NCBI GenBank assembly: GCA_002189035.1 | Contig: NEEC01000013.1 | Location: 1,922,001 to 1,986,000, forward strand | Direction of reading: 5' to 3' | DNA from: Utricularia gibba | Lineage: Eukaryota > Streptophyta > Magnoliopsida > Lamiales > Lentibulariaceae | Length of the DNA: 64,000 nt | In this document: positions 5,282-52,073 of the stretch, piece after piece | How the letters are laid out: each line of letters starts with the position of its first letter | Numbering within the stretch: the stretch's first letter is position 1 | The notes under the pieces: generated by a model | Told to the model about the DNA's origin: nothing | What the model saw: only the letters and a program-made list of their open reading frames with translations | Database searches by the model: none | Program-made: the position numbers and the translations under genes

Positions 5282-7005
5282 TCAGTTCCTCGCGGAAGAG
5301 GCGTCGCTCATTGCCCAGGCGGTGGTGGAGATCAGTGGCCGAGAATGCCAACCCAACATCAAGCACCCGTTGTTCTCCTCTACACTGTATCCGTCGCCGC
5401 CGAAGACGGCGAGGAGCATAATCGCTTGTTTGTAGACATTGGAGCCCAGATGAACGGGTTGGAATCCGGCGGAATTGAAGCGGTTTCTCCATTGTATCAA
5501 CGACTCGTGTCTCTCAATTCGATCGGCGCCTTCACAAGCGACGACATTGAAAATCTGCTGCCCTAAATACGCCTCGCTCATCATCTTATTCTTACGGCTG
5601 AGCGCCACATCGGGGCCGCCGCCACCGTCGCAGGTTTCAAGAGAATCGAAGAGGGTGGAGTAGTAGTGCAGAGCTTCGGTGAAGCGGTCCAAGAAACAGC
5701 TACTGTTGTGGTTGGCCTCCTGCTCAACAACCGTCAAAATCTCCGGCTTCACTTCCCGGATGACTCGCAGAACCTTGTCGATCGCTCCAGGCTTCGCAAG
5801 CAATTGATGCAACTCGAAAATGGAGTTTACAGCTACAGTTTCATCTTCTCTGATATCCAACAGAAGGGCATCCAGATCAGCTAATGAATTCGCTACAAAA
5901 CCTCTGTATTCGAACTGAACATTGATGGTTTTGGCGAACTGGGCTAATCTGAATCCAACTTCGTGCAAATAATCGTTGTCATCCGGCGAGGGAGGACCGA
6001 TTCCGGTGAGACGGAAAGTGGGGGACCGCCCTGTCTGAAAGCTAGCGCTTGAAGAAGCGCTGGCCATTGCATCCCCTGCTTCATACTGAAATCAATGACA
6101 CGGACATGGCTTTTGCCTGCAAAAGCTTCAAGAATTGCTTGATTCGCAGTGAAATGAGCAAATTTGAGATATGGGCAAGTTTCGTAGAAGTGCATCTGCA
6201 ACATATCGGTGAAATGATAGTCCTGAGGCTGATGGTTCATGGGGTAGATTCTGTAAATTCTTCTAGCCAAAGCTTCTGCGAAATATGTGGCCACTTTTCG
6301 CATAGCTCCAGTTTGAGAAACGGCAAAGAAAGCGATGTTCTTCACCAACGCTTCTGCTAATTTGAAATTCTCCTCCTGCACAGCTTCTGCACACGCCATT
6401 AAAGTATGGACGAGCCTGATTCCATTTTCCTGAGAATCAATCAGGATCGACCGCCGGGGCGGCGAGGGCTCACCCCGCAACGTTTTCGCTTTCTTCGCCG
6501 GCGGCTGATGCTGATTCCTGCTCTCCGGCGAAGGTTGGTGAAACTGGGTATTAGCAAAAACAGCTTTTCCGGGTATAGCGATGAGATCCGACCCAAAATC
6601 AAGGTCAGCCGCTGCCAACCCCCGGTTGCTATCAGCGGCGGAAGATTCAAGAAAAAGATCCAGAGAGGAGTCGAAGTCGAGTTCCGGCAAAGGGCCGAGC
6701 CCAGAAAGCATATACTCAAGCCAGGAAGATAGATCCGAGGGATTACAATGAAGAGTATCATCCATAGAACCGAGCTGCGAATACCCACCAGCCGCGGCGT
6801 CCCCCATGGCCGCTTCAATCTGATGAATCTTCTGAGCCACATCCGCCATGTCCGATGCCCTGACCTTATACCCCAACACCCCGAAAAGCTCATCATCAAT
6901 CCCTCCCTCCTCCAACCCCCGCTGCCTCATCCTACCTTCATCCATGAAAGAAGAACTCCCAGAACCAGAAAAATTATCCTCGGAAACCAGATTCTCCCTC
7001 TTCAT
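5282..7005 (-). CDS. DELLA-type GRAS transcriptional regulator, apparent 1-bp frameshift
   Basis: Single-exon gene, as usual for DELLA proteins, of about 574 aa. The N-terminal part holds a DELLA-like motif ([11 protein letters not shown], residues 38-48) and a second gibberellin-perception motif (TLHCNPSDL, about 84-92). The GRAS domain follows: leucine-rich region, VHIID-type motif ([14 protein letters not shown]), PFYRE-like region ([11 protein letters not shown]), RVER ([11 protein letters not shown]) and terminal SAW-like TTAWAM. DELLA proteins repress gibberellin responses in the nucleus until the GID1 receptor triggers their destruction. Reading from 7005 fails at 6024-6020, a run of five G on the plus strand; the rest is open in the next frame to 5282. 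One missing base explains this, probably an assembly error (see findings). Both GID1-contact motifs differ from the usual DELLA and TVHYNP, which could weaken hormone sensing. Confidence 0.9.
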
Positions 7006-10000
7006 CGCCCCTCCTCGGAACCAATAAAAAACGAAAACAGGATGAAATGGAATCAGAGCATTGGGTTAACGTGCTTAGGTATTCACAAAGTTACCCTCCG
7101 TCTCCGGGATTCCTCTGTTTGAGAAAGTGAGAGAAGATGGGGCACCGAGGGGTCAGTGCGTGGGCATCGCAGAGAAGAGTGTGCTGTTGGCGGGGCGGGG
7201 AAAGAGGTAATAATTACTAATGGTGGTACGAATCTATACAAAGAAAATTATCCACACCAAATTCAAGAACACAATATATTTATTTAATAAATAAACATGA
7301 AAAATAATATAAAATCATTGTACTTCTTGGTATTTTAAATACCATTATCTCACACAAATTATTAATTAATAATAAATTGCGCTATCAACAGTTTTATAAA
7401 GGTGAATAAGGAGTTTTTTGGTATTTTAGAGTTTATGGGGCGTGGAGGGAGGACACTTGCCAAAGCGCACAGATCGATGATAACGAGATTTCAGTTTCGG
7501 AACTGCCCCAGCAACAGGGGACAAATTGACCAAAGGACCCCCGCCAACCGCCGTCAACATCCCTCCGCTACCTCCGTTATTGATACTGCCCAACAGTTAA
7601 CGCCGTTGCACTCCCCGTCCGTTAGTGTGACGACTACCCTTTTTTATTAGAAATAAGAAATAAATAAATTATCCTTAAGTTAAATTATTAAATATATTAA
7701 TTAATTATATAAATCATATTCATTGATATCTCATAAATTATAATTTATCATATACTGAATATTCAATTCATCTTAATAGTTTATTATTTTATTTATTCCA
7801 AAAAATCCCACTTATTTCATGTTATTTAATATCAAAATAAGGGAAAAAAACTAAAATCACCATAAAGACTTTCCTAAACCTATTTAGAAAAATGACCAAA
7901 CTGCATTTATCTCTAATATACTATAGGAGTGTTCTGAAAAATTTTTAAAATCTATTTCTACTTTTCAAAAGTAAAACTAATATTGTTCTAAAATATTTTT
8001 AATTGTAAAAATAATTCTATCAAAAATATTTTTAAAATTATAACTACAAAAGTTATTTTTAAAAAAGTAAGGAGTTGATTAATTTTACTTTTTATTTCTA
8101 TTTTTCAAAAGTAATTTTGAAAAGTATAAACAGGTTTAAAAAATTTTCCAAAACACTGCTTACGACTATTTTTTATATATACAATAGATATTAATTCTTG
8201 ACCCTTTTTTGTAATAAACCCATTTTTTCTCCATAATATTTACTATTTTTAAAAATATTATACCATGATAGGCTATGTTCTCCACATGAAGGCCGCTACA
8301 TGTCAAGTTGGGTAGACTATGTTCTAGTGTACCGAATGTGGTCTCGTGCGAGACTGTCACACGATGGACATTGATGTGAATCTTGATTAAACTGTAACTT
8401 AATTTAAAAAAACATTAGTGGCAAAGGATGATTGTCTCATCTAGTGTTAATCAGCCACTATAATTGAGCATGAGTCCCATCAGCCTATCAGGTGACATGA
8501 CCACTTGAGTAATATCAACTTTTTTGTTGATAATGATGTATATTAATGACACACAATTATCTCCTACAGTCTCTAAACATGATTTAATGATCTCAAGATT
8601 CACTTTGATTTCTTTTTTTTTTCTAGAAGTTATTTTAATAAAACAGAATTTGAATGTATAACATTTAAACTACCCTTTGGAGAATTAATTTTTGAGAATT
8701 ATTTATGAAAAATTAGAAACTATAGTTATGGAGATTATTAAATTTTTTAAAAAATTATTTTTATGTTTAATGATAAAATTATTTTTAAAATATGATTTAA
8801 TTATATTTGATAATAAAATTATTCTTGAAGTTTTTTTTTCCAATATTCATTATAAACATATACTATATCATTAAAACCTTTTTTTCTTTTATGAACTATT
8901 ATTTTTTACTTTTTTTAATAAATAAATTTTTTAAATAATCGATTACCGATAATTTTTAATAAATCAAATTTTAAAAAAATGGGATTAGCAAAAGCAGGGT
9001 AATGAAATCGATGAGCGAGATGGAAGAGGAGTTGGGATGGGGACCAGTCAATACAGTGGTGGAGGTGGATAAGGAAGGAGAAGAAAGCGGATGGAGGAGA
9101 AGAGTGGGGCTCAACTCAGAAAGGGATGCGTCAGTTCATCCAAACCCTACCTTTCGCTCAACAGTAATTCCAGAGAGATGAAAAAAGGGGGGAAATGGAA
9201 CAGAACCCGTAAGTTCAATTTTCTTTTTCTTTTTCTTTTAATGAAATCATGGATGCGGTGTCATCTCCTCCCGCTTTAATAAAATATATATATGCGCGGC
9301 ATATGTTCGACGTAATGCCTCAGAGAGATGCAGCCGTACGAGGAAATTGAGGATCATGATTGCAATTATGCCTTTCTTTTTATCTACAAAATAATTCATT
9401 GGTGGAGCACAAGAGCTGTTCGGCGTAATGGTTAACAGGGGAAAAGCCAGCCAGGGGTGGCGAGTAAAATGGTGGATCATGCATTTTATGAGAGTGTCAG
9501 ATTATTTCCATGGCGGGGAGAATGCAGCAGCAGCAGCATTGAAGAAGTCAGGGTTAAAAGCAGGGCCTTGATAAATCTACAGACTCGGCAGCAAAATCAG
9601 TGAATTTGGTGGAAAAGAGATATGTGAGCATAAAAATTGGGTAAGAAAAGTAAGAGCAGTAGAGCGTGTTAGCAGAAGAGAATTGAGGGGTCACTGAAAA
9701 CCACCTTTCCAAATAGGGAAATCTAAGCATCGATGATGTTGTCACGTGAAACGTGGGCCATCACCTTTGCAGGGGGAGACATGAAAATGATGGACATGAG
9801 AAAGAATTTATGGCGTTGAGAGGAACCACTGTGGTTTTTGGCTTAGGAAATTGAGGTGAAGAGCCAGGGAATACTGAAGCGTCTTGAAAATGGGTAAAGA
9901 AAAAATCTGAATGGGAAACTGTGGGTGGAAGGCGCTGCTGCTGCATCATTCAATACGTTGGTCAGCTCACTGTGTGTTTGGCCTGAAACATCTGCCACGA

Positions 10001-10290
10001 AATAGACATGTAGTGCAGTCAGTACTTAGCATGGAAATGGAAGGGTATTTGTGTTCATTGGGTTTCAATGGTGGATCAGTCAAAGCATTGTTGCATGTTC
10101 AATTGCCTAAAAGCTCTAGAAGAGACAGAGGAGCTGGGAAACCGTAGATTGCCACGGAACAAGGATCGTATTCAATCGAGCATTGCCTGGATATTGGGTC
10201 ACTCTGTGTTCAATATGTTCAGGAACTCCGGCCAAAAATGAGGCCTGTTCATGAAATACTACCAACAAGGCCGTTGAAATAATCTTAAAT
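7006..10290. other. Long spacer upstream of the DELLA gene, no gene recognised
   Basis: The first 200 bp are the DELLA 5' leader/promoter side. Bases 7,640-8,990 are extremely AT-rich. Bases 9,000-10,290 have higher GC and look unlike the neighbouring spacer, with several short frames on both strands (for example 9,911-10,147 plus and 9,761-9,949 minus), but none shows a known domain or a plausible splice chain. This part may be 3' flank of the JAZ remnant or an untranslated transcript. Confidence 0.5.
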
Positions 10291-10429
10291 CTGGTATTTG
10301 TAGAAGACCATCAGGCAATCCTGGTCGTTGATCATGGACTAAACGTCGCCGGTGTTCTCCTTGCCGGAGCTGGTTCCAGCACCTTAGACTGTAGCCGCAG
10401 CGACTTCCGGGCCGTCCCAGTCAGCAGCA

Positions 10430-11985: not shown

Positions 11986-14897
11986 ATGACGGAGACTTCC
12001 GGAGACGGAAGCGTTGATGCGCCAGCGGAGGTTGTTTCTCGTGACACTGGCGGGAATGCAGTGGGTTTGGGACCGACGCTCACGGTGTCGGCGTCGTTCA
12101 AGGGCTCCGCATCACGGCGGAGGTCGTTAGCGCGACCTACCGTTGATGCGGATGAGTTTTTAAGCTCGCTCCATGGCTCGGATCCGGTGAGGCTGGAGCT
12201 TAATCGACTGGAGAACGAAGTAAGAGGTGAGTATCTCTGGTTCTGGATCCACGGGATTTGTTTTCTGATTTGAATTTGAGACGGCGCCGTTCGGATTCTT
12301 GGCTTGAACTTGTGTATTTCGTCGAACGCACAGCACAATGAGAATGAATTGAGTGTTTTCTCTGTAGATAAGGAGCGGGAATTGGGAGAAGCTTATTCAC
12401 AGATCAAGGCGCTGAAGCTCTCTGAGAGGCTTCGAGAAAAAGCCGTTGAAGAGGTTCTTATTTAGATTACTTAGTATATTTATGATGAGTGTATCAGGAG
12501 AAGTTTGTCATAGCAGATGAAAGAATTGCCGGAATCTATTACAAAATCTGCGTTGGTGTTAGTGCATTCAGATAATCTTAAACGCCGCTGAGCCCTGAGA
12601 CCTTTCATTTTGTTTTAGTTGACTGATGAGTTGTCGAAGGTGGATGAGAAACATAAATTAACGGAGTCTGTTCTTCAGAGCAAGGTACTGTGTATTCTTT
12701 TTCCATTATGATCTCCGTATCATTATTTTGTACATTCTGTAGATCTACTTGCCCTATAATTTTGTTTTTTTTTTCAGAATCTTGAGATTAAAAAACTTAA
12801 TGATGAAAAGAAGGCCTCAATGGCAGCCCAGTTTGCTGCCGAGGCTACACTTCGGCGCGTTCATGCTGCCCAAAAGGATGATGATATGCCCCAATTGAAG
12901 CCATTCTGGCTCCATTGGAAGCCGAACTTAAACTCTCTCGACAGGAGGTTTGTGCATTTAGCAACTCGCTCTGATGTTAATCCGCTTCATTTATGATAAT
13001 GTTACTGAACCTATCTGTATTTTCCACTTAGATTTCAAAGCTACAAGAGGACAACAAAGCATTGGATCGGTTGACAAAATCAAAGGAAGCTGCTCTACTT
13101 GATGCGGAGAGAACTGTACAAATAGCAATGGCAAAAGCATCAATGGTGGATGATCTGCAAAACAAGAACCAAGAATTAATGAAGCAGATTGAAATTTGCC
13201 AGGTATAATGGACACCTGTGGCTGCAAGTTTTTGTGACACTATTCAACACAGTTAATATTTTTTTCTTTGCCATTTGGATGTTTTCCTATTGTATCAGGA
13301 AGAAAATAAGATAATGGATAAAATGCATAGACAAAAGGTGGCTGATATTGAAAAGCTTACCCAAACTGTGCGTGAACTTGAAGAGGCCGTGCTCGCTGGT
13401 GGGGCAGCTGCGAATGCAGTCCGTGACTATCAGAGAAAAGTTCAGGAGATGAACGTATTAATACATTACCCAATGATTTCACACGTAACTTCTGATGTTA
13501 ATCTTAAGTTGATTGCCTTCACTCATTATGTTTTCAGGAAGAAAGGAAAACTCTTGACAGGGAGCTGGCTCGAGCTAAGGTGACTGCAAATAGGGTTGCA
13601 ACTGTTGTAGCTAATGAATGGAAAGATGCTAATGACAAAGTAATGCCCGTGAAACAGTGGCTGGAAGAGAGAAGGTTCTTGCAGGTGTAGTGAATCCCTT
13701 TCACTTGCCAATGAATATTTGTAGTTGTTAAATATTGGCGAGTTGGATAATCCCAGCTTATCTTTATTTCTACTTCACAGGGCGAAATGCAGCAACTCAA
13801 GGATAAGCTTTCTGTAGCAGAGAGAACTGCTAAATCAGAAGCCCAGTTAAAAGTAAATGGCTTCAACATATTGATTCTGGGTAATTTTTTAGAAACATGT
13901 CATTGGGATCACATTACAATTTCTCATCTTTCAGGAAAAGTTTCAGTTACGTCTGAAGGTTCTTGAGGAAACGTTGAGATCGCCAAATGTGGCACCCCGT
14001 GGTGCTTCGGAACCTAGGAGCTCAAGTAATGGTTTAGCACGCCGCCAGTCACTTGGTGGAGCTGAAAATATCACCAAATTAGCCTCCAGTTTCATTCTGC
14101 CTAAAAGACCCCCATCGTTTCAGAGTAAATCTTATGGAAGCAGTTCAGTTTTGAAACATGCAAAGGGAGCATCGAAGTCCTTTGATGGTGGATCACGACC
14201 TGTGGACAGGAATAAAGTTCTCTTGAATGGGTTAGGTCCAAGTTTCAAGCAAGTTCAGTCATCTGAAGATGCTAAGCAAATTGACGAGCCTACTAGTACC
14301 ACATGTGGAAAAGCTCCAGCAGAAAACACGAGCGACATACAAATTGAAGCTGTTACTGAGGACACAGTGCCTGGTGTATTGTATGATCTATTGCAGAAAG
14401 AGGTGGTTACGTTGAGAAAAGCTGGCCAGGAAAAGGATCAAAGTCTCAAGGACAAGGATGATGCAATTGAGGTTAGATCATTATGCCCTCGAATTTTTTG
14501 TTGAACATGAGTCAAGTGTTTCCTGTCCACTACTTTGATCAGATATTAGCAAAAAAAGTGGACACTTTGACCCGGGCAATGGAAACTGAAGCCAAGAAGA
14601 TGAGAAGAGAGGTAGCTGCCATGGAGAAGGAGGTTGCAGCGATGCGTGTGGAGAAGGAGCATGACACCAAAGCCAAGAGACTGGTGCATTCGAGGAGCTC
14701 TAACAGTTCACAGTTTCTCTCTGCAAGGTATGGTTCCCTATTCTCATACATCTCAACACAAAAATATATATATTGCTGACATTTTATCGATGCACAACTG
14801 TATGGCCTTTCCTTACGCACAAGCATGCGTTCACAGTAATGCAATGTTGCCCTGCAGGATCTTATCAAGAAGTGGGATGACCCGCAGCACACAATAA
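11986..14897 (+). CDS. MAP70: Microtubule-associated protein 70 (MAP70), apparent 1-bp frameshift
   Basis: Eleven exons: 11986-12226, 12368-12453, 12619-12684, 12778-12947, 13032-13202, 13299-13454, 13538-13684, 13781-13852, 13935-14471, 14543-14727 and 14858-14897 (about 623 aa). MAP70 proteins are plant-specific coiled-coil proteins that decorate cortical microtubules and shape secondary walls. The family's long coiled coil is clear: FAAEATLRRVHAAQKDDDMP in exon 4, RLTKSKEAALLDAERTVQIA in exon 5, MHRQKVADIEKLTQTVRELE in exon 6 and VKQWLEERRFLQ in exon 7. The conserved RRQSLGGAEN and LKHAKG(A)SKSFDGG blocks follow in exon 9, and the C-terminus is SGMTRSTQ. Exon 4 is one base short: the C run at 12889-12892 needs a fifth C for the family frame to continue. 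It looks like a base-calling error, not decay, because every other exon is intact. Confidence 0.92.
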
Positions 14898-15524
14898 CAG
14901 AACATTTGTATCCGGGTTCCTTTTCATCTAATCCAGGTTTCATTATCCACCGTATGTCTGCTGGCATGCCCATGCCAATATCTCTTTGGTGGGATGAAAG
15001 TATACGGTGGAAACGATCAATCATCATGTGTGTTTATTTTACCCTGAAATCAAGCTGCTCATTCAGTAGATTTGTATTGCTGTGGGTAGCAATTAAATTC
15101 CCTCTATGTATAGGTAACTTGGTAGCTTTTGGTATGACTCGTTTGGGATTGTTGTACGGGTCTTCATTGTTAACGTCGTTTTCATGTTCCTTGGTTTCAT
15201 CTTCTGCCACTTGAATTTATTGGATGAAGATGTTTGTCTCTCTCCGTGTAGTGTCTCTTGGACTGGAGTCTTTATGCCTGAATGCTGCTTTCAACTTTGT
15301 CTCCATTAGTGTTGTTAGTGCTATTGTTTTGTAATTGGAGAAAGGGATTTTTCAACTAGCATATGAATGCAAGGATCCGTCATGTCGTTTAGGTCATCTT
15401 CTGCAGGATTCAGATTCGCACGGCGCATTTCACCCAGTGTAACTGTGAGTATTCACAGAGAGGCATATGGGAGCAGAAAAGATTTACGAAATGATGGTAC
15501 CATATGAATTTGTACAAGGAAATC
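14898..15524. other. 3' flanks of two converging genes
   Basis: A spacer between the ends of MAP70 (+) and the MS1-like gene (-). It presumably holds both 3' untranslated regions and polyadenylation sites. Nothing else was recognised. Confidence 0.55.
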
Positions 15525-17527: not shown

Positions 17528-20500
17528 TGCTTGTTTCCCTTCCTTGGAACTTAGAAGAAGGTGTTTGCAACACAGAAAGAGAGTTAAATTTGGAGATGGC
17601 TTTGCTTATAATAGGGTAATTCACACACATGTTGCTGGAACACAGAATAATGAGAAGAGCATTAGCAGCTCCAAGATCATCGTGTTTGTCCGAAAGTATC
17701 GCGCTCTCTTACCATGCATGACTTCCTTTTCAAGTAATTTAATGAACACATACCTTCTATCCTCCTCCATTTTTTTGTTACCTATCCATACCTACACCTT
17801 ACTTACATCCATGCTCTAGATGCTAGAATCTAAACAGTATGTTTGGAGGTGTTTTCCACCTACTCGTTGCTAGAAAAACAAAATAAGCATGGTCATTTTT
17901 TGCATTTGAAGGAAAACCCTATTTCCTTGTGAGAAAAATTTAGGGTTTGGGGTTAGGGTTTTTGTGTCTTTCTGAATAATCCTAATCCTATTACATAAAT
18001 AGCATCTTGCATGATTCACATGACATCCATTTCATGAATCATGTTTTCATTTTACAATATTATGTGTTTTGGATATCTAGTTTTCATAGTTCTATGTTCT
18101 CTATTTTTGATAAAAAAAATTATCTAAGATTAAGATAGTAACTCTATTTAATCAGATACCAATCATATGGAATACATAAACTCTATAAACAGGATGTTAC
18201 ACATCAATGCATCAATTATTTCCAAATGAATGTGTAGTCTTCTAGTCTCAGAATTAAAAACAAAAAAAAAGTTTCTCTTTTTCTTTTTTTTTCATAGATA
18301 TTTGTAAATATTGTAAATATCAAAGAGTAGGCAACATGTGTAGTTGCATAGGGCTTTAAAGCAAATGAAAAGATTTCAAAATTGGCAAATATACTACCGC
18401 AATAGATATTGAAAACCACTTGATGCCGATACTTCTATTGGTCGACTGTGTGCCTTTTAGATCATAACAACATGTTTCACTATGCAGAGACGCAACACTC
18501 CTCCCATGGAAGAGTCTGGATTTTCAATCACCTAATGTTGAAAATAAGGACTCAATAGATCCCTCCTGCTCGATCCTTGTTATGGTCTACCTGATGGAAA
18601 CGTGAAAGAAATGGTAAGGTGATCTACTCTTTATGCGTAGATTACACGCTCTCTCTTTGTATGATATTGTTAGAAGCTCGTAATTCAGATCATGAAATCG
18701 ATACTTGGCCAAGGCATCCTTCAAATCTTGATGAGGCCGCAGTGAATAAAATGTCTTGCAGTAAAATCATCCAAGTAAAATTAGGGTTTATCCTTGGGAG
18801 TAAAATTAAACCAATGCTCCTCTTTGTGATAGTTACAACATGTTTTTAAATAAAATTATCTTATCCATTACATTTACGTAAATCTAATCTTGAGTAAGAT
18901 ACGACAAAATCGTAGTCTTTGTCTAATTATTTTTGAAAAATGATTCTAATAAAATGAGTTTTTGCAACTTTTTTTTAAAAAATATTTTAAAAACATAAAT
19001 CACTTGTATTTAATAATAAAATTATTTTTAAAAAAATAAAAAAATAATTCCAAATAGAAACAAATCCAACTTCTTCCTCCTCCTCCCTAACAAAAAACAA
19101 AACAAAAGAAGAAGAAGAGGAAGTGTAGTGAGATAAGGTAACTGAAAGTCAACGCCATAATGCCTGGGGGGTGATGTTGCGGGGGCCTCCCACTAAACGA
19201 CCAAAGTCAACACTCGTGACAACGTATTGGTGGATTTTTTAATTGTACACACCAAAGTCAATGCACACGTGTCGTATTAGTACATATATTATATGCACCA
19301 TGTGAGGGATATGCCGCGGGCACATACTAATTGCATGATCCCCGATTAATGCGCTAATCTTATCATCACTAATCATCCTCGGGTTTAATGTACATTGCCT
19401 TTGCATTCGTTTGTATTTTGTAACAAAAATATTTTTAGATCACATGTTCAAAAGTATAAATTATCATAATTTGAATTCTGTATCTTGAAAAATAGTTTTC
19501 GAAAAGTGATTTTAATAAAATAGAAATTGGATCTCTATATCTTTTTGAAAGAGAAAATTACAAGAACAAAATTTCAAATTTAAGTCAATATAAAGAACAT
19601 AATCATCAAGTTTCAAAATTACAAAAAAAAAAACATATCAAGTTGTCAAAATCATGCAATGAAAATCCAAAGTATTTTCAAAATTTTTAAAAATTGAATC
19701 TATTTATGACAGTTTTGGTTTTAAATCTAACTAAATTTCATACTAAAGCTTTTCACATTTGTGTGTGAAGTTCAACAAATCGAAGTATACCTCTATTAGA
19801 ATTATATCGTATTTATATATTCTATTATTTGAAGTGATAATGTTTATATTATATTCATATCTTATATAATTTAAAGTGATAATATTTATATCGTATCTCA
19901 TATTATGCATTATTATAACGATGTTAAAATCAAAATCAATTAGTTTTGATTACATAAGAGGTTAAATATGCAATTTTATAAATTCGAGAGCAAATTTTAT
20001 AAAAAAATAAGTTGAGAATTATATGAATTAATTTTGAAATTTGAGGTTAAACTTATTATACTGATTGTAAATTAGAGCGACACTAGCAAACTCCACCCCT
20101 TTTTAAAAAGTGTGTTTTTAGAATTATGTTGTTTTTGAAGTATAATTTGTTTGTATTTTGTAATAAAATTGATTTTGAAACCTATTTTTTTAGAAGGATA
20201 AGGTGTTACAAGTGGAACCTAATTTATACGTATTCCTATACACATAATTGCGTCGTATTTGTATTCCACGAGTATTAAGGTTTTTTTGATCATGTTTATG
20301 TAAGATAATTATGATTAGTTGGCGACTAAACAAAAAAAAGTCTAAAGTGGGATTTTCCTGCAAAGGCAGTTGAAATCTTGCACGCACAAGACCTGCCCCC
20401 TACACCGCTCCTCTTTTTCCAGTGCAGACCAAGACTTCCAAACTAATGATATGTTTGAATCACCCCTATTCTGGAATTTCATTCCTGTTGTTGTAGATAG

Positions 20501-26540: not shown

Positions 26541-27422
26541 AGTTACCGCCATTTCCCGTAACAGCAACAAGTTGCTGTACTCATCGTTCTTTGCACGTAG
26601 ATAGGTGCTTGACGGGGGACTCGAGGCTTCTTCCCTGCCCCATCCCACGCAAAATAAGAGCACTCACATGTGTATGTAGACTAGAAGGTAGACAGGAAAT
26701 CAATAGTATATGACCAACATAAATTTTCACAGCGCCCGGACTCCAAAGCTATCATCTTTAGCTCTCCATGATTCCACCCATCCCCACCCCTCCATGACCC
26801 TTTCGATTTGAATAACTGGTTTCTGAGTTTATCGAAGCGATAGGTGCTTGAGGGGACTCAAGGCTTCTTCCCTGCGCCATCCCACGCTAAATAAGAGCAC
26901 TCAGAAGTGTATGTAGACTAGAAGGTAGACAGGAAGTCAATAGTATATGATCAACATAAATTTTCACAGCGCCCACAGTCCAAAGCTATCATCTTTAGCT
27001 CCCCATGATTCCACCCATCCCCACCCCTCCATGACCCTTTCGATTTGAATAATTGGTTTCTGCGTTCATCGAAGCATCAAACCATGCTGCTTCAGGGATA
27101 GGGTAGTCCAAAATTATAAAGACCAATGATGAAATCAAGATACTTTCGGGAATTTTTTTATATACAGCAATAAAAGGAGTACACGCCACAAGCATCTCGA
27201 TACACAGAATCTGTAATAAATTGGGTTGACAAGGATTCCGTTCGCCCGGAATCCAATCATCAGTATTGTGGGCTAATCCCAAGAGGATGTTATAAATCGA
27301 AGGGACTCTCTCAGTTGTCAGCACTCTCCGAGGAGCCTGGGAAGCGGTTGAACGGATTTTCGTTGTGATCTGAACGGCCTAAGGAGCTGCAGACGCAAAT
27401 CACAAAGAGGGGTTTGATTTTA
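26541..27422. other. Spacer between SOS1 and the NPF8-like gene
   Basis: Most of it is the direct tandem duplication described separately. The remainder (27,076-27,422) is probably the NPF8-like promoter and 5' leader. Confidence 0.6.
26600..27075 (+). repeat. Tandem direct duplication of a 237-239 bp unit
   Basis: Unit 1 (26600-26838) and unit 2 (26839-27075) both begin ATAGGTGCTTGA(C/G)GGG. Both contain CCATCCCACGC, GTATGTAGACTAGAAGGTAG, ATAAATTTTCACAGCGCCC and CCACCCATCCCCACCCCTCC, and both end near ATCGAAGC. The units differ at a modest number of sites and small indels, so the duplication is recent but not brand new. It starts 60 bp after the SOS1 stop codon, so unit 1 is probably 3' UTR, and unit 2 lies about 350 bp before the next gene's start. 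Confidence 0.95.
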
Positions 27423-29869
27423 ATGGGTACCCAAGAGGAAGAGAGGTTGCTTCTAGAAGAGGGTGTTCGTGAGGCGCGTCTCCTTTTTCATCTGCTTTTC
27501 GCGTTATTGCTGATTTTTTTAGAATAAAAGCTTTTTGATTTGAGTTTACTCTAACATAAGAGCCAAGCAAGATTAAAAGTTGTAGTTTAGGATTGGGAAT
27601 TTCAGTTGCCTGATTACTAAAAAAATTCGGTATGCATACTCTTTTGTTAGAGATCTCATAATCTGGGATTGTTTTTATGTGAGCTGCACAGATGCTGTAT
27701 CATCTGTGAGTTATTCTTAGTTGGTTCTCTTAACACTACCTCTCCTTTGATAACAGGATAGGATTGATGCTCTTTTTACTGGTGATGGTTCTGTTGATAT
27801 TAAGGGGAACCCTGTTTTGAAGAGCAATACTGGGACTTGGCGAGCATGCCCCTTCATTCTGGGTACTGAGAAGTTACTGATAATTTTCATTCTCTAGTTT
27901 CTCATCCCCCTAACATGTAAAGTAATGCAGGAACTGAATGTTGTGAGCGTTTGGCTTACTATGGGATTGCAACTAATCTTGTAACCTATCTTATAAAAAA
28001 GCTACACCAAGGAAATGTGCCGGCTGCAAGAAATGTGACTACTTGGTCAGGCACCTGTTACCTTACTCCCCTTATTGGGGCAATCCTGGCAGATTCTTAC
28101 TTTGGGAGATATTGGACGATTGCTGCCTTTTCCAGTCTTTACTTCATTGTAAGTGCCTAACTTCATCTATTAATTTTCTTCTGAGTCGACACTTCACTAT
28201 TTTTTTTTTTTTTTTTTTTGTCTTTTGGAAGTGTTGATTTTTATGAGGAGAATTTTGTTTGGTTTAGGGGTTCTTCACATGGACTTACTTGTTATAGCTT
28301 ACATGATTTAGTGGCTTTTATGCTCATACTCTGGTAATGCTATCATCCTTATATGATACAGTTTCTGGTCATCTGATTCATCTGTCATGAACTTTTTTAA
28401 GGGAATGTGCACCTTGACTCTGTCTGCATCTATACCTTCCCTTAAGCCCTCTGAATGTATCGTCACTCGACTGGATACCGTATGCCCTTCTGCTACTCCA
28501 GCTCAGTATGCTGTATTCTTTATTGGACTATATCTTATAGCCCTTGGAACAGGAGGAATAAAACCATGTGTTTCTGCCTTCGGAGCTGATCAGTTTGATG
28601 ATACTGACTCCGTGGAGAGAATTAAGAAGGGCTCCTTCTTCAACTGGTTTTACTTTTCCATCAATATTGGTGCCTTGATATCTAGTAGTTTGATAGTGTG
28701 GATTCAAGATAATGCAGGCTGGGGCCTTGGCTTTGGCATCCCTGCTTTGTTCATGGGAATTGCTATAGTTAGCTTCTTTTCCGGCACCACAATATATAGA
28801 TTTCAGAAACCAGGAGGAAGCCCCATTAACAGAATCTGCCAAGTTGTGGTTGCATCATGCCGCAAGTTGAATTTGGTGCTCCCTGAAGATTCTGCCCTTC
28901 TGTATGAAACACCGGATAAAAATTCTGTGATTGAAGGAAGCCGAAAGCTGGTGCACACTGATGAATTCAGGCAAAGATTTTCTTTTTGTATGCTCTTCTG
29001 AAGTTTCTGTTTTCCCATCTGATGTGTTCCAACGTTTCCTCTGAAGGTTCCTTGATAGAGCTGCCATAGTTGCTGACAATGAGAGGGAAACCGGATATTT
29101 TTCAAGCCCGTGGAGGCTGTGCACAGTAACACAAATTGAGGAACTGAAGATCTTGATCCGCATGTTCCCCATCTGGGCTTCTGGTATTGTCTTCTCTGCT
29201 GTTTATGCTCAAATGTCAACAATGTTCGTGGAGCAGGGCACGGTGATGGATACTTCCATCGGCTCATTCAAGATCCCAGCAGCCTCTCTGTCAACTTTCG
29301 ATACCATAAGCGTCATCTTTTGGGTCCCCATCTACGACAAGTTTCTCGTCCCCGTAGCCAGAAGAATAACAGGCAAAGAGAGAGGCTTCTCAGAGCTGCA
29401 GAGGATGGGGATCGGCCTTTTCCTCTCCGTCCTCTGCATGTCCGCCGCCGCCGTCATCGAAGTCCGCCGCCTCTCCCTTGCACAAGAGCTCGCCCTCGTC
29501 GACACGCCAGCTGCTGTCCCAATGAGCATTTTCTGGCAAATCCCACAGTACGCCCTGCTGGGAGCTGCTGAAGTTTTCACATTCATCGGACAACTGGAGT
29601 TCTTCTACGATCAGTCCCCGGACGCCATGCGCAGCTTATGCAATGCATTCGCCCTGCTGACAACTGCTTTAGGTAACTACTTGAGCTCCCTCATACTCAC
29701 ACTGGTTACATACTTCACCACCCGCGGAGGAGCAACCGGATGGATACCTGATAACCTGAACGAGGGGCATCTGGACTACTTCTTCTGGCTCCTTACCGCG
29801 CTGAGCATGATCAACTTGGTGGTCTACATCTTCTGCGCCAAGGTTTACAGACCCAAGAAGTCCTCCTGA
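27423..29869 (+). CDS. NPF8/PTR2-like proton-coupled peptide transporter
   Basis: Five exons: 27423-27473, 27757-27862, 27931-28148, 28402-28970 and 29047-29869 (1,767 nt, 588 aa). It is a twelve-span MFS transporter of the NRT1/PTR family, closest in wording to subfamily 8 (Arabidopsis PTR1/PTR2/PTR5). Those proteins import di- and tripeptides with protons across plasma or vacuolar membranes. The [10 protein letters not shown] segment carries the ExxER proton-coupling motif. Other signatures are [37 protein letters not shown] and [14 protein letters not shown]. The long central loop before [12 protein letters not shown] is typical. Intron 4 uses a GC donor (AG|GCAAAG), and intron 1 seems to as well (GAG|GCGCGT), which is less certain, so the first 17 residues are tentative. 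The exact subcellular membrane cannot be told. Confidence 0.93.
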
Positions 29870-30073
29870 GGGAGCTCACTCCATGCTCTCAATGTAAAAA
29901 CTACGCCATTGAAGGCAGGCCCTTCTACCTCTGCACAGGGTTCACAGGATGCAGCTTGCTCCCTTTCCTCCCCTTTGATTCTACTGCAACTGTATCACAG
30001 CACACGAGTGCCTTGTAAGATGTGAAAACATAGCAACTGGGAAAGCTTCTATAATAGCAATGAAGTGGTTGCG

Positions 30074-30248
30074 TGCTAGAATACAAAATATCATATAGAA
30101 AAATGAAAATAAAATAATTAAGTATATAAGAAATTACAGATCATAATTAATCAGTTGTGTCTAATTTTTTCTATTATGATTTACATTTTTTGTGTACTTG
30201 GGCTTCATGTGTGTGTTCGTCCGACCCGTCGGATCCTGAATTTGAACA
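30074..30248 (+). repeat. Left LTR of TRIM
   Basis: 175 bp, TG...CA ends, containing AAGTATATAAGAAATTACAG and TTGTGTACTTGGGCTTCATG. Confidence 0.85.
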
Positions 30249-30464
30249 TAGTATCAGAGCGTTTGTCTTGCGGCATGTCTTGGGTGGCCAAGATGGGTTT
30301 CGTATTAGTCTGATATCCGGTTAAAAAAAAAAAACAAGAAGATGCATTGGATTTAGGTGACAAAAAAAAAATAAATCGACCTATAACTTGAACACTACTT
30401 ACAATCATAAAAAAAAAGGAGCAAGTCATCACCGGATCGCATACCAATTCAACTTGAGGGTGTG

Positions 30465-30639
30465 TGTTAGAATACAAAATCTCATATCGGAAAATGAAAG
30501 TGAAATAGTTAAATATATAAGAAATTATAGATCACAATTAATCGATTAGGTTTAATCTTTTATATTATAATCCATATTTCTTGTGTATTTGGGGTTCACA
30601 TGTGCGTTCACCCAACTCATCTCATCCTGAATTTCAACA
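30465..30639 (+). repeat. Right LTR of TRIM
   Basis: 175 bp, same length as the left LTR, with TG...CA ends; it contains AAATATATAAGAAATTATAG. Confidence 0.85.
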
Positions 30640-31334
30640 TTACACAGGTCATATGTCGTTTACTGCGTAACTGTGGAAGCATTCGCCCATTTCATATGAT
30701 GCAAGGAAATGCACTCCTGTTTCCTTCTACCAGTTTTGCTCCATTTTCGCTTCCCACCAAACGCACCGCGTCGCCCCATGACTCAAATGAAGTCACTGTT
30801 CCCACACACACACACCCGTCTGTGTATCTGTGTCTACGTATTTTCAACTCCGAAGCAGCTCCGTTGACTACGCCATGGATGGACACGGCTTCTGAGTTCC
30901 GTGGGGTCGTTTTTGGAAGACGAAGCCTTGGAAACTTAGGGTTTGCATTATTAATTTAATATGATTTGATAAATTCCGTGGGGTCCACATTCTAGAAGTG
31001 CATCTCGATGGATTAGTCATAAGTATTATTTTAATTTATTTGAAATTGTGATACATCTTCCCCATTAAAATTAAAATTAAATTTATACCAAACACTAATG
31101 CACAAGATCTCGTATGAGCTCTTAACTAATGTTTGGTTAATTGATAATTGTTAAAAATAAAACTATATTATAAACCTTAATAATTTTTTTTTATTTCTTC
31201 ATTAATTTTATGAAAATGATGAACTAAGAATAATGAGGTTTTGATATACAAAACTCATATAGAAGGTGGATTTTCATAAATCTACTTAATTAATGTTTAA
31301 AAAATCAGATGTATTTATTTTTTTATTAAATTCA

Positions 31335-32309: not shown

Positions 32310-34336
32310 ATGGCGGCTTCTTCATCATCATCATCTGCTATGAAGAGAAAAAGAAACCAGCCTGGAAATCCAAGCAAGTTTCAACTTTTTTATTCGAAAT
32401 CTACATGAAATAACAATGAAATCTTTACCTTAAATTCTTTCGTTTGTTCATCAGATCCAGATGCAGAGGTCATTGCTCTATCTCCCAAGACCTTAATGGC
32501 CACAAACAGATTCATCTGCGAGGTTTGCAGTAAAGGGTTTCAGAGAGAACAAAATCTGCAGCTTCACAGGAGAGGCCACAACCTTCCATGGAAGTTGAAG
32601 CAGAAGACCGCAAAGGATGTGGTCAGGAAGAAAGTGTACTTGTGCCCCGACCCGACATGCGCCCACCACGACCCGTCTCGGGCTCTCGGAGACCTCACCG
32701 GAATAAAGAAGCACTTCTCCAGAAAGCACGGCGAGAAGAAGTACAAATGCGACAAGTGTTCGAAGAAGTACGCCGTCGTTTCCGATTGGAAGGCTCACTC
32801 CAAAACGTGCGGTACTCGGGAATATCGATGCGATTGCGGCACCCTCTTCTCTAGGTACACTCCATTAAACTCCGGCAACCTTGATAACTTTCCAGTTTGG
32901 ATGAGATTAGTATTTAGTAGATTATAAGAGATTCAGATTCCCATCACGGGCATGGAAAATCATGTGGGTGTTTTGGAAGTTTGCCTGCAGAGGCAGAGAT
33001 AAAGGCTACACGTGAAGTGTCACAACCAAAGATGTGATTTTTTTTTGTTGGTTGCCGGAGACTTGGGTTTTTTTCCAATCCATTATGTTTCTCCTTCACT
33101 CAACTGTGGAATGTTGAAGCAAGGTTTCAGACCCAGCTGAAAGCTGTTTTCTTGTGAACTTGGTTTCGTGTTGTTTAGTTGCAGTTTCTGCATACAAGAT
33201 TCGGTTTTTTCTTCGTATTCTTCCAGAACCCAGAAAAATATTCCATCTGACAGATACTCCTCTTGTACTTCTTAATACTGTTAGTGCCATTCTAATGTGT
33301 ATTGATTGTTTTGCAGAAGGGATAGTTTCATCACCCACCGGGCGTTCTGCGACGCCCTGGTGCAGGAAATAGACGGGGGAGTATACTGAATCACGCGCCG
33401 TTGGGCGGCCACCTTCTTACAGGTTTTCCGAGGAACTCGGCGGCGGCGCATGACCAGATCGACGTGGGTCTACTTTTCGCGAATCATGAATTACTCCGAT
33501 ATGGGTCTGGACCAAGCGTCTGTCAGCTCAGCAGCCTCGTCGCCCCCGCTGGGCCGCCCTTCTTCCCGCCGCCTTTGTCTCTGCAGCAACAGCCGTACAG
33601 CAGTAACGAGGAATGCCAGTTGCTTAACAAACCCTCTTTTCATAGTCTCATGCAACAGCAGCAGCTTCCTCTGGAGAACGGCGGCGGTTCGTCTCTAGGT
33701 CTCGTCAACCTAAGCTTCTTCCCTGGAAACAGTAATTCCTCCCCACAACACTCCGCCATCTTCTCATCTGGTAAGTTTCTGATGCCCAAAATAATTACTT
33801 TTTTTTTTTTTTTTTGCGAAGTTTACAGTAAATATATGTTTCTTTTTGTCTCCTCAGGCCACCAGCACCGCCACCTCACGAGTATGATGATGACTATCCC
33901 TTCCTTTTACAGCGGCAGCACGGCCCTGCAAAGCCCCGGCGCCGACCATACCTCATCGGCATCCATCTACGGCTCCGCTGCCACCACCTCGCCGTTCAAG
34001 CCAATGCCGCCATCTTTCGGGGTTTTCGAGGGGAACAACAACCACCTCCAAGACGTGGTGAACTCCGTCACCGGCGGGGGCGGCGGTTCATCGTCCTCCC
34101 TTTTTGATCCCGGCCCCTTCGTAGGGAAACCCGCGTTAGAGACGATCAACAGCGACAAGGGCGTATTCGTAAGCCATGGATTGGATATGGAGATGGAGCA
34201 AGGGAGACTGAAACTCACCCGCGACTTCATGGGCGTAGGGGAGATTTTGGGAGAGCAGCACCGGAGTAGAATCTCGATGGATCGTCTCAGCTCAGCCTCA
34301 GAACTAAGTTCGCTTACATGGAAGCCAGCTCCATGA
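32310..34336 (+). CDS. INDETERMINATE DOMAIN (IDD) C2H2 zinc-finger transcription factor, apparent 1-bp frameshift
   Basis: Four exons: 32310-32373, 32455-32854, 33317-33770 and 33858-34336 (about 465 aa). The family core is clear: basic KRKRN stretch, NPDAEVIALSPKTLMATNRF, then four zinc fingers (FICEVCSKGFQREQNLQLH; YLCPDPTCAHHDPSRALGD; YKCDKCSKKYAVVSDWKAH; YRCDCGTLFSRRDSFITH). The C-terminus has LTRDFMGVGE, the conserved IDD T/LRDFLGVG box that contacts TOPLESS/SCARECROW-type partners, and it ends SSLTWKPAP. IDD proteins bind DNA in the nucleus and also serve as scaffolds for DELLA proteins. Intron 1 has a GC donor (A|GCAAGT). In exon 3 the AAA run at 33367-33369 needs one more A to join the zinc-finger part to the frame RRGSILNHAPLGGHLLTGFP. 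This is probably an assembly error. Confidence 0.92.
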
Positions 34337-45686: not shown

Positions 45687-48600
45687 ATGAAAAGCCGATC
45701 ACACCGACCTCCGATGTTGGAACCGCGCCACGACGACTGGGTCGATGGATCCTGGACCGTGGATTGTATTTGCGGGGTGAATTTCGATGACGGTGAGGAA
45801 ATGGTGGACTGTGATGAGTGCGGGGTCTGGGTGCACACTCGTTGTTCTCGCTATGTCAAGAGTGAGAAATCTTTTTCTTGTGACAAGTGCAAGAGCAAGA
45901 ACGGTGTCGGTGGTAATAGGAATGATAGTGAAGAAACGGAGGTAGCCGAGTTTCTTCTTGAGTTGCCTACCAAAACGATGCTGGACGCGCCTAATCCTGC
46001 CTCCATCGCTTCGCGTAAAACTTTTAAGCTTTGGACTGATATCCCCATGGAGAAAAGGGTTCATGTGCAAGGGGTCCCTGGGGGGAACCTGGGTTTTTTG
46101 AGCGGAGTAAAATGTCCTCTATTTTTGGTCCTCGATTGTGGAATTGTGCTGGCTATGTTCCTAAGCAGTTTACTTTTCAGTATACCGAGTTCCCATGTTT
46201 GGTTGAGGAAAAGTCTGAGGATGAGATGGACAAGGAAAGTGGTGAAGGAAATGGGGATCAAGTGAATGATGGTGCGGGGGCTCTCATTTCATTTTTAAGG
46301 GTTGCCAAAAGTCCCTTTCCCACTTCAAATGGAAACCCCGTGCTAAACTGCCCTTCTGATGTTCCTGTTTCTGGTCAACTACTATCGCCCACCCAGAACA
46401 AGAAGTCTGATGTTGAAAACCCTGAAATGCCCTGCACTGGGCAAAGCTTATGCGAGGAGGCCACCTCAGAGCCTGTTGTGCTAGACTCCACAAAGCGTGA
46501 GGTGAAACAAAATATTATGCTTAATGACCAACAAGTGAAGAAGTTGAGGACCGCGGAAAAAGATGGAGACTTTGACAATCAAGTCTCTAGAGATTCCGAA
46601 GCAGGTAAGGGTGAGTCATCTTTCTATTATTCCATTTTTTGATGGAATTTCTTGTTGTTTTTGGCCTGTTTTCTATTCAAAATGTAAATCTTCTGCGCTT
46701 GAAATGTGATTGTTCAGGGCACATAACTCACACCTCTCCTCGGATACCACTAGATTCAAGTGATGTGAAGCACTTTGATTCTTCTCAAGAAAGAGGCTCC
46801 AAAGCTTCCAACCACCATCCAGGAGAATGTGCTACTAACTTGGCTTTGAAGGGACATAATCTTAACCATGGTGACTCATCCATAGTCGAGAATAAGGAAG
46901 CTGAAAGAAGACCAGGAAGCTCCATCAAAACGTGCAGCGATGTAAAATCATCAACCAAATTTGCTGAAAGTCGGTATATGCCTCTGAAAGAAAAGGTTTT
47001 TTTCTCATCTCCTGATTATGCGTTAACACAATGCAACTTCTTTGAGCATATCTGTTCATATTTAAAAATCGTTCATGTACTTTTGACCTACGTCAAAATA
47101 GTGTATATCAAGCAAGTTTCTTAAAACAAGAGCAACTCTTCTATCTTCGATTCCTCAATTTTAGGACACTTGTTACTCCAGTTTTCCATATGAGGTGATT
47201 ATGTCATTTGACTTCAGAATAAATTAAAAACAGGTTCCCAATGTTTCTTCTCAAAGTACTGATGTTGTGGCTGGAAGTACTGGAAGATCGGGAACTGAGT
47301 TTCTAGCCAATAATCCAGTGGCAGAGTATTCGATTACTGGAGGTTCAGAGGCTGAAAAGGCTGAGGATGATCAGAAACTAGCGACTGATATGGCTAATGA
47401 GCGACCTATGAAGAAACAAAAACGTGAGTCAGTTGATGAATATAGTGAGATCAATTTGAAGAATGGAAAAGCCACCATTGAATATTCCGATGTTTTTGCT
47501 GAAGGAGTTAAGTTGCCAAAGACGTTGGCAATGGGTCCTGAATCCAATGATTCTCAGTTGCACTATGCAGGGGAGAACCAGAATCTAAATATTGATGATT
47601 GCAAAGCAGATAATCCTGATTACTCGTCTCCTGATTTGTATGATGCAAAGATAGAATCTAAAACTTCAGAAGTCGATCTGGGACCTAGAAAAAAGTCTTT
47701 AAACATTAGAAATTCTTCAGAGGTTCCAGATGGGATACTCAAGTTGAATGGAGATTCCCAGATGCACTTCGTCGGTGCTACTTCAGTGAAATCAAGTTCA
47801 AATTCTGGCGGTATGGCATATAGTTCCACAGGTGATCATGTGGCACTGGATTCGAGAAGTCTTTCCACTCATAATGGGCTGAAAGATTTATCTGAGCGCA
47901 TTGTTGGGAACATGAGAGGCCATGCTTCGGCTGATATGCTTGAGCAAAATCCAAAATGTGGGAGGCCGAAGAAAATTGCTAAAGAATCTTCTGGATCAGG
48001 TTTTGTATCAAAAATTCCAGATTCAACCAAAATTTCTCACACGTCCAATTCCAGGGGAACGTGCTCTGATTCAAAGGATTTCAGCTTCTCATCCTCTAAT
48101 GTACCTCACTTGCGAAGTGTTTCTTGCACTCGTTTTTCGGATAATGGTGTCAACCAGTCACCCGGTCTCCAGGATAAAGTATCAGCTGCATCTGTTCCAA
48201 GCAAAGGAGAGAAAGTTCGCCAGTCTATCTGTCAGACCTTGTCCAAAGGAAATATAGCTTCTGCGTCTGCATCATCAAATGTTCCTGCAGCACTAAGTGA
48301 TGAAGAGGTACAATGAAATAATTTCAAGTCCATGTTTTGCTTTAAGAACACATTTTACCTTTAGAAATTATGTGCTGGCAGCTTGCTTTGCTCTTACATC
48401 AAGAGCTTAATAGTTCCCCAAGAGTCCCCAGAGTCTCACGGATGCGTAATGCTGGCAGTTTACCTCAGATAACTAGTTCAAGTGGAGGAAAAGAGCAAAT
48501 TCTGGTACCCCCCTTGGGTTAACTCAAGCTTCTAGCAGTTTTTTTTTCTTCACCTAAATGATGAATCTTCTCATAATATTTTTTTTGTAATGTGATAAAT

Positions 48601-50140
48601 CTTGTTTTCAACAATTCTTAGAGTTACAGAAAGAAAAGCAAGGATTTGTCGGGGGAAGCCTCACATGGCTACCTTAGGTCAAACGTTGAAGTTAAGAAAG
48701 TCGAGAGAAAGCCTTCTTCCCCTGACAATACAAGGCAAGATTCTGCTTCCAGCATAGATCAGCATTCCCAAAAGGAAGCTGATTGTGGTTCAATTAAACA
48801 TGTGCAGTCTATGAACAAAGTGTATGTGGGCGGCCTTTCTTCTCATACCTGCGGAAATGGGTCCTTGCGTAATTGTCCCTCAGCCCGGAATACTGCAGAA
48901 GATGGCTCACAAATGGTCACGCCGCATCTAACCTTACCTGGTTTGTATCTCAGAAAAGCTAGAAGTTCGAAAACTGTTCATTCTCGTGATTTTCCCTTCA
49001 CTTGCAATCTTTAAAGGTTTGATCGCTGAGATTATGAGTGGGGGAAACCGTATGACATACGAAGATCTTTGCAATGCTGTCCTTCCGGTATTCTCACTCT
49101 TGCCTGGAAATATGTGTTTACCTTCCGTGAGAGATATTTTCTGGTATACGTCCCCTAGGGTTAAGTTTTAATTTGCATTTTGCAGCATTGGCCTCATCTA
49201 AGGAAGCACAATGGGGAGAGTTATGCATACTCAAGTCACTCGCAAGCTGTTCTTGACTGTCTAAGGAACCGTAGTGAATGGGCTCGTTTAGTTGATCGGG
49301 GCCCCAAGGTACAATCTCAATGCTATCTCCTGCCTGCACCTGAGACACATTTGTGCACGCATGCAGTGACCCCCGTTCACTGTTATACCTTCTCTTAGAT
49401 CTTATAAAACACGTAGCAATGAACAAAGATATTGTTATGGATATTCCATCTTCTGGTACTTGATTGTTCACTAGATGTAATAAAACTGTAACTTGTGCTA
49501 TTATCTAGATTAGGGCTGATGCTAAGATCATCGGTCCTATCAGATAATTTGTTTCACCTATAGTCCTGGGTTACTCCTTGGTGGACTCACCACACAAATT
49601 CACGAAAAATGTTCCATGCACTTGCCTTACCATTGGCATCCCATGGGATCTAGGGGATGCTTATTTTTCTTCCCTGATTGGGGCTTTTTACAGTTGCAAA
49701 CTTGTGAAACATATGTCTCTAATGTGGACTTTTTTTTTTCATGGGTGCTCGTATCCCAGACTAATGCAGGAAGAAAGAAGCGGAAAAATGATGCAGATTC
49801 TTTTAGTATGGAGTTAGAGGAAAGTGAAGAGACTAGAGTGAAAGTTGCAAGGAGCGAAGGGAGTAACAAGAGTCTGGAGTCCCACCAAGAAGACGTTCCC
49901 AAAGGTAGAAGACAAGCTAGGAAACGAAGGGGCCTTGCTTCACAGGAAAGAGGTGGCATTATGACAAGGCAGCGAAGGGCTGATATGGAAAGTGATTACG
50001 AGAGCGAATCCTCCAAGGAATCCACTGAAGATGATGAATCCAGCGAAGAAGAGGAAGAGGATGAAGACGAGGACAATGATGACGATGGAATATCAACAGT
50101 TAGGAGCGAGGCTTCTTCTGGTTCCGAGGCTACCCATTAG
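45687..50140 (+). CDS. Large PHD-finger protein (At3g20280-like), apparent 1-bp frameshift
   Basis: Eight exons: 45687-46604, 46718-46995, 47234-48307, 48382-48504, 48622-48940, 49017-49087, 49186-49308 and 49760-50140 (about 1,095 aa). The N-terminus has a PHD finger (VDCICGVNFDDGEEMVDCDE...VHTRCSRYVKSEKSFSCDKC), then the block KLWTDIPMEKRVHVQG and LWNCAGYVPKQFTFQYTEFP, which resembles part of a BAH-like module. A long Ser/Asn-rich region follows. Near the C-terminus MSGGNRMTYEDLCNAVLPHW begins a winged-helix-like segment, followed by a basic stretch (KGRRQARKRRG) and an acidic tail. A chromatin-reader role in the nucleus is inferred. The G run at 46080-46085 needs one more G to link the PHD part to SKMSSIFGPRLWNCAG; the other exons are intact. 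The gene is longer than the Arabidopsis relative. Confidence 0.88.
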
Positions 50141-50538
50141 TGTCTTCAACTCCCAGTAAAGCATCATCTTTTGGTTGAACATCCCTAGGCTGGGTAATAC
50201 AGATTACTTCCAGTGGAGAAGGGGAATCAAATGCTCTCTCTCTCTCTCTTGAAGAATCTCCTTTCCTTCCGAGCGTGAACGCAGATGCGCCGTGTCTACA
50301 CTTTGGACCGAGGTAAAATCATAGAAATCCCTCTTGTCGATGCTACTGCCTTGAGATTTGTACAGGATGGGGCCCTCCCTGCCCTCAAGTTTGAAATGTA
50401 CGGTACGCACATGCATATATCATATATGCTTTACAATTTACAATGGTTGAGAATATTAAAAAGTAGGAAGTTGGTTACATCAAAAAGGGGGGTTTCTATG
50501 CCTTCTCTTTTAGTCAGTGTTACTTTTGATGTAACATT
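50141..50538. other. 3' flanks of PHD gene and WAT1 gene
   Basis: A short spacer between converging genes. It contains a CT microsatellite at 50234-50249. Confidence 0.6.
50234..50249. repeat. (CT)8 microsatellite
   Basis: About eight CT units in the probable 3' UTR of the large PHD gene. Confidence 0.9.
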
Positions 50539-52073
50539 CTAAGCCTGTTGGCGTAGTGAAGTTTGTGGTTCGATACATATGTTGATGATTTGTGATTCCT
50601 TATCTTCTTCTCCTTGATGCCGTTCTTTTATCTGTTCACCTGAGTTGTTATCCGTTTCCTGACTCTTCTTCATGTCTCTGTCTTTCCCCATAACAAAAAG
50701 TACAGCCCCACAATCACGGTGCCTGATCCCAGTACACTGCACAAAAAGGGTAACTGCAGAGTTAGGTAGCTAGAGGTGGGAGCATGGGAATTGTTACAGA
50801 GCGAGGGATCCATGTAACCAACCTTCCAAGATGCAGCTGCTCTCTAAACACTGGGACCTCATAAGCAGCCGCCATGATCTGTACCAGTGGACTGAACGCC
50901 GCTGTGAAGACTGCGCCGCGCTTTTTGACGCACCACGACATTCCCGCGAAGCACAATCCTGATGCTACGATTCCCTGCAAGGTTCTTCCTTGTCATAATA
51001 CCACTCATCCACTTCAGAAAGTGGTGATCGTATCCCCAGCAGTACACTCGACTCAGTGGGTTGTTGTACTTGGAAACAAGTTGGGTAGAGTTCTTACCGT
51101 GAAGAGAATGATGAGTATGTCGGAATGCCTTTTGATGAACCAGACGGAGGCCTCCCTGTTTGTAGACAGACACAGAATGGCTGATTGCAGAGCACTGAAC
51201 AAGGACATGAAGGCCGTGCTGGAGTATGGGAAGGGATATGCTTTGCCTAATCTTGTCTGCAGGAGGAACCACGACGACCAGCACAAAGTTCCTCCAACCA
51301 GCGCCATTGAACCAAACAGCCATTTCCTTGAGTTGGAATCGACCCTCTCTTCCTTGGTGAAGTGAATCGATGGTGTTTGTCTGGAGCAGGTCAAGAGGAT
51401 CACGCCTGCAATGCACACCAGCGCACCCACAAGCTTTGCGATCCCACTCTTCTCCCTCACATTCACCACTTCTTGGCTGCATGCATACACACCAAAGGTC
51501 TTTGGTTCTTGTGAGACACCTGTTTTGGTACTGTAAGGACGAAAGGGGAGAATGGTGCGTGCATCTTACCCCAGGAGCAGAGCCATCACGAACGTGAAGA
51601 CGGGCACCATGTTCAGGAAAGCGCATGCAAATGTGGCAGATGTGCTTTCTATCCCTATAAGGAAGAGATATTGGGACACCGTTGCCCTGCAGATCGATCA
51701 AACAGTTTTCGATGTACACAGAAAATATGCTGTTCATGAACTGGGATTGTGAACTCACCCCAGTATTGCACTGAGGAACAGTTGACACATGATTCCGAAA
51801 GTGAGTCCAGGATGGTTCTTCCTGCAAGGACACCGCCACCACATTTAATCTAAGATCAAATACACAAGGAATAAGAAGAAGAAGTAGCAACCCCTCGAGG
51901 AAGAAGGCCACTGGAGCTAGAAACAGAGTGGCAACAAGTTGCCGGTATGTTACGAAGACCAGGCGATCAAATCCTTCATCAACAAGCTCTTTCACAAGTA
52001 CGTTACTAACAGCGAAACCCATATCAACAACTATCATCACAATTACAGGATACCATCTGACCATCATCTTCAT
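50539..52073 (-). CDS. WAT1-related (MtN21/UMAMIT, EamA-type) transporter, apparent 1-bp frameshift
   Basis: Six exons on the minus strand: 52073-51892, 51821-51759, 51686-51570, 51476-51098, 50974-50823 and 50736-50539 (about 363 aa). It has ten hydrophobic segments in two EamA halves. Family signatures include LVFVTYRQLVATLFLAPVAF, ATFACAFLNMVPVFTFVMAL, GIVASGLCFAGMSWCVKKRG, VFTAAFSPLVQIMAA and VLGSGTVIVGLYFLLWGK. Relatives export amino acids or move auxin at plasma or vacuolar membranes; the substrate cannot be told here. In the last exon the AAA run on the coding strand (plus 50683-50685) needs one more A. Without it the protein ends a few residues after LLWGK; with it a polar tail of about 40 residues follows. 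That makes the change mild even if real. Confidence 0.9.

Follow-up and report, generated by a model that had tools for sequence, protein, structure and literature searches.

The window, meaning the whole 64,000-nucleotide stretch of DNA analysed here (G000:C375:1922001-1986000), belongs to an assembly of Utricularia gibba that comprises 100,091,633 bases in 516 contigs. Its gene content is of the flowering-plant type, and its approximately 21.7 kb of coding sequence contain five frame breaks, all of the same sign. The affected genes and the sites at which their frames break are as follows.

5282..7005, minus strand: DELLA gene (GRAS family, DELLA N-terminal domain; Pfam DELLA PF12041 and GRAS PF03514), present as two open frames
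6020..6024: G5 (C5 on the coding strand) in the DELLA gene, within its Gly-Gly-Pro-Pro codons; the family frame calls for one base more
11986..14900 (3' end approximate), plus strand: MAP70 gene (Pfam MAP70 PF07058), with paralogs on contigs C451 and C2
12889..12892, plus strand: CCCC in the MAP70 gene, against CCTCC in both paralogs; the lost base is T or C
32310..34336, plus strand: IDD gene (BIRD-IDD zinc finger; Pfam BIRD-IDD finger families), with a copy on contig C142 (L057)
33367..33379, plus strand: interval of the IDD lesion from the comparison with C142, either AAA at 33367-33369 or G5 at 33375-33379
45687..50140, plus strand: large PHD-finger gene (Pfam PHD PF00628 near the N terminus)
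46080..46085, plus strand: G6 in the large PHD gene, one base short
50533..52076, minus strand: WAT1-like transporter gene, aligned along its whole length with a copy on C142 (L075)
50683..50685: TTT (AAA on the coding strand) in the WAT1-like gene, against AAAA in the C142 copy

The first-pass annotation had held that each of these five genes lacks one base, that all five changes are losses and that the surrounding exons are intact. These statements are borne out: the frame shifts at or adjoining every named site, the signs agree at all five, and no other gap breaks the frame in the exons that could be aligned with C142. In the DELLA gene, positions 1-140 of the GRAS profile fall in the upstream frame and positions 136-373 in the downstream frame (the same split is given by Pfam and by the genome search), and the frame arithmetic yields exactly one base lost between the two GRAS halves. 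In the large PHD gene, codon usage switches by -1, out of frame 0 and into frame 2, within the interval of about 46080-46140, which amounts to one lost base; DNA and protein searches of the genome found no full paralog of this gene and none that covers the site. Pfam gave no score on the WAT1-like frames, and the family name stands without Pfam confirmation.

The further proposal, that every loss lies inside a homopolymer and is repaired by a base of the same type, is firm at three of the sites and ambiguous at MAP70 and IDD. Both MAP70 paralogs read CCTCC in frame, and what the window lacks may therefore be a T flanked by CC on either side rather than a member of a C run. The C142 copy of IDD runs in a single frame across the site at which the window shifts by one lost base; a lesion in the G5 at 33375-33379 appears at least as likely as one in the AAA at 33367-33369, since it fits the C142 codons (GAA ACC GAT CGG) slightly better and offers the more error-prone context.

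Positions 2000-57100 of the window have a largely syntenic, partly inverted duplicate at G000:C142:1758649-1867365, with DNA identities of 70-88%. The C142 block carries genes for DELLA, NPF, SOS1, IDD, katanin p80 and WAT1 as well as a MAP70 remnant, an arrangement that fits a whole-genome duplication. Inspection by eye, aided by C142 where possible, found no further breaks in the SOS1, NPF, katanin p80, At1g33420-like PHD, phosphoglucomutase-like and AATP1-like genes, and an apparent frameshift at 63618 in the AATP1-like gene was rejected as an intron. The five window genes, and the C142 exons set against them, contain no nonsense changes, no gains and no larger frame-breaking deletions.

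Other features of the window include what is likely a small non-autonomous transposon, an approximately 240-base repeat at 7923-8163 with more than 25 copies elsewhere in the genome at 84-90% identity. Two dispersed repeat families of approximately 500-570 bases, one at 30073-30640 and the other at 19538-20109 and 61655-62150, are 66-84% identical to many copies. A tandem repeat lies downstream of SOS1 at 26580-27060 (units at about 26600-26810 and 26840-27050), and the NPF gene has an apparent GC-AG intron at 28971-29046 (AG|gcaaag ... ctgaag|G), as judged by eye.

The C142 duplicate of the DELLA gene, 79% identical in DNA, likewise lacks one base in the corresponding C run, there a C6. Between the two copies dN/dS is 0.236 before the break and 0.211 after it, at a dS of about 0.5, and this comparison found no relaxed selection beyond the disabling change in the pair. 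The ratio being equal on either side of the break, selection has maintained the part behind it in both copies ever since they diverged, which excludes an old null shared by both; that the same mutation arose recently in each copy is unlikely. A context-dependent miscall would account for the recurrence, as the conserved codons give rise to this long C run in both genes. On C451 and C375 the DELLA copies are intact and lack the slippery site, and the DELLA gene on C2 has two losses and breaks at another C run. Katanin p80 provides the mirror image of the window's lesions: it is whole in the window (37279), and its C142 copy (L055, near 2735) is one G short in a G5 run. A literature search on Utricularia DELLA or GRAS genes found no paper.

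The five-gene pattern is thus real, but it is not special to the window, since lesions of this kind are spread over the whole assembly. Base-by-base reading covered 26 lesions in all, in window genes, duplicated copies and GRAS, Exo70 and PPR genes: five in the window, one each in the DELLA and katanin genes of C142, two in the C2 DELLA gene, 13 in ten other GRAS genes, two in Exo70 and two in PPR genes. All 26 are losses and none is a gain. If gains were as frequent as losses, the chance of such an outcome would be about 1 in 60 million, a figure that serves only as a guide as the lesions are not fully independent. Approximately 20 of the 26 lie in or beside G/C, many of them in runs of four to six, and some adjoin single bases outside runs. 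The ten further GRAS genes, each of which has lost a single base once or twice within the conserved domain, are located as follows.

C1:4158, C244:1855, C375:2186, C255:3202 and C412:1826
C480:454, C328:2492, C213:2030, C414:3444 and C416:300

The first of these, C1:4158, is the third gene whose frame breaks where the Gly-Gly-Pro-Pro codons form a C run, and two of the breaks (C414, C416) are at contig ends. Within the GRAS family about 13 of approximately 45 genes have at least one break when the conserved domain alone is considered, including both members of the DELLA pair and a third DELLA gene; eight whole GRAS genes were also read. Coordinate arithmetic had suggested gains in two GRAS cases, each of which resolves into two losses, and two other GRAS splits were rejected as frame breaks because they are introns. 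Both Exo70 losses lie in a single gene, and the approximately 46 kb of PPR coding sequence contain two breaks, both of them losses. Among BAHD genes, six more splits are losses by coordinate arithmetic only, and two other cases were left without an assigned sign. In a few GRAS and BAHD fragments elsewhere there are stops, and these fragments may be true pseudogenes.

The length of a run does not by itself determine whether it is broken. In the coding sequence of the window two of 16 G/C5 runs are broken, together with the sole G/C6 run. None of the 21 G/C5 runs in 46 kb of PPR genes is broken (0 of 22 when G/C6 is counted as well), and the density of breaks is higher in the window and in the GRAS genes than in the PPR genes. 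Intact C6 and G6 runs exist, and the GRAS counts at length six are biased by the way in which the cases were found. Run length as the sole cause is rejected as a complete explanation, given the unbroken G/C5 runs of the PPR genes; an additional factor, perhaps local coverage or G+C content, appears to be involved. Across the genome, exact G/C runs number 14,854 at length six, 2,706 at seven and 214 at eight, counts for which there is no corrected assembly as a control. The ratio of successive counts drops from 0.18 to 0.08, the fall lying between seven and eight; G/C run-length counts usually have a heavier tail. The fall at eight is suggestive. A pile-up of G/C runs at length six, seen in a first sample, was rejected by the genome-wide counts.

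A direct view of the assembly's errors is provided by a locus that was assembled twice. The 38 kb contig C316 (L122, G000:C316:31400-34900) repeats a segment of C412 near 854 kb (L123, G000:C412:853773-857273). Over 3.5 kb the two differ by one substitution and 11 gaps, all of the gaps being in C316 and most of them one base long. A C4 that is read as C3 in C316 splits a GRAS frame, open over 615 codons in C412, into frames of 229 and 412 codons. In real sequence variants substitutions usually outnumber gaps. The same DNA, assembled twice, differs by far more gaps than substitutions, and hence the assembly does make errors of the proposed type, at any rate in a contig of small size. C316 seems to be redundant and poorly called, and it is probably thinly covered as well as small, whereas the contig of the window measures 3.2 Mb; on a large contig, a duplicated stretch of 2.1 kb shows only one substitution and one gap.

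Judging from the sequence, the five missing bases are very probably errors of a long-read consensus and not mutations of the plant. The averaging of noisy single-molecule reads would call a run of identical bases one too short, with G/C runs of four to seven most prone and a single base occasionally affected; the reads themselves would carry the longer runs, and presumably no short-read polishing removed the errors. U. gibba is listed as HGAP-assembled in a review, from approximately 703,000 subreads with a mean of 10.4 kb and with a contig N50 of 3.4 Mb (PMC5793159), and the assembly behind the window is probably this PacBio/HGAP/Quiver assembly. Homopolymers are a known weak point at which the Quiver consensus fails, and frameshifts in a G9 run have been described in finished assemblies (PMC4853030). 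In an HGAP assembly of P. falciparum, 25,352 indels against 1,798 substitutions were counted relative to the reference before short-read correction (PMC5964635), and long-read errors in general are mostly homopolymer indels (PMC12007338). The systematic undercalling proposed in the first-pass annotation is therefore supported by the one-sided lesions across the assembly, the recurrence of the DELLA break at low dN/dS, the twice-assembled locus and the Quiver/HGAP literature. The systematic part of that proposal stands; homopolymers are not the whole story, as some losses fall in runs of very few bases or next to a single base.

Were the frameshifts real, the genes would have been lost by the plant, aided by a genome-wide bias towards small deletions in a shrinking genome. 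Deletion-driven shrinkage has indeed been proposed for the small genomes of bladderworts, a plant that has no roots might manage without GRAS genes, duplicates exist for most of the affected window genes, and two losses in a single gene, as seen in some cases, are in keeping with decay. However, the breaks in the window are accompanied by neither a nonsense substitution nor a larger frame-breaking deletion, the DELLA dN/dS is the same on both sides of the break, and the identical DELLA break would need two recent origins. The 11 gaps to one substitution that separate C316 from C412 are, moreover, the opposite of the ratio usual for variants, and gene loss by the plant is very improbable. A mixture of alleles, with the assembler picking the broken one, is the least probable reading of all: consensus builders do choose one allele, but the broken allele would have to be chosen in 26 of 26 cases, and an allele with an inserted base never, while the twice-assembled locus is almost devoid of substitutions.

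A different kind of explanation invokes recoding: in the DELLA genes, if not in the others, the missing base would be genuinely absent, and the ribosome would make a programmed -1 frameshift at the C run. The candidate slip sites are U CCC CCA in the window and C CCC CCA on C142, the latter matching the X XXX XXZ slippery pattern; the break falls at identical codons in both duplicates, a -1 slip would restore the family frame, and the downstream half of the gene is under selection. Against this, the remaining breaks lie in unrelated genes and have no slippery heptamer in common, and the DELLA pair alone shares the site, the C451 and C375 copies being whole without it and the C2 gene breaking at a different C run. 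Assembly error accounts for all of the cases together, and such recoding is even less probable than gene loss. Overall, there is only a slight chance that a strong and real bias of this lineage towards single-base deletions at G/C runs is at present silencing GRAS and other genes, or that the DELLA genes are truly short and depend on ribosomal frameshifting.

Consensus undercalling is ordinary as far as biology is concerned, and is not a biological feature, but it matters for users of the assembly. A recurring error makes many healthy genes look dead, and counts of gene losses or pseudogenes taken from this assembly would overstate loss, chiefly for G/C-rich genes with conserved Gly-Gly-Pro-Pro stretches.

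The lesions share with the true pseudogenes that follow whole-genome duplication the occurrence of frameshifts in one member of a pair. Unlike such pseudogenes they come without nonsense changes and without relaxed selection behind the break, and in the DELLA pair both members share the break. The resemblance to the residual indels of PacBio CLR/Quiver (HGAP) assemblies is much closer: there, as here, single-base homopolymer indels break genes with intact flanks (PMC4853030), and indels outnumber substitutions before short-read correction (PMC5964635). What sets the present case apart is that runs of only two to six bases are affected and that every case read is a loss. Gene-fragmenting long-read errors have likewise produced apparent pseudogenes from uncorrected indels, which came to light when relatives were compared (Kastor, PMC12007338; Watson and Warr cited there). 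Here, duplicates within the one genome and a twice-assembled locus serve for the comparison.
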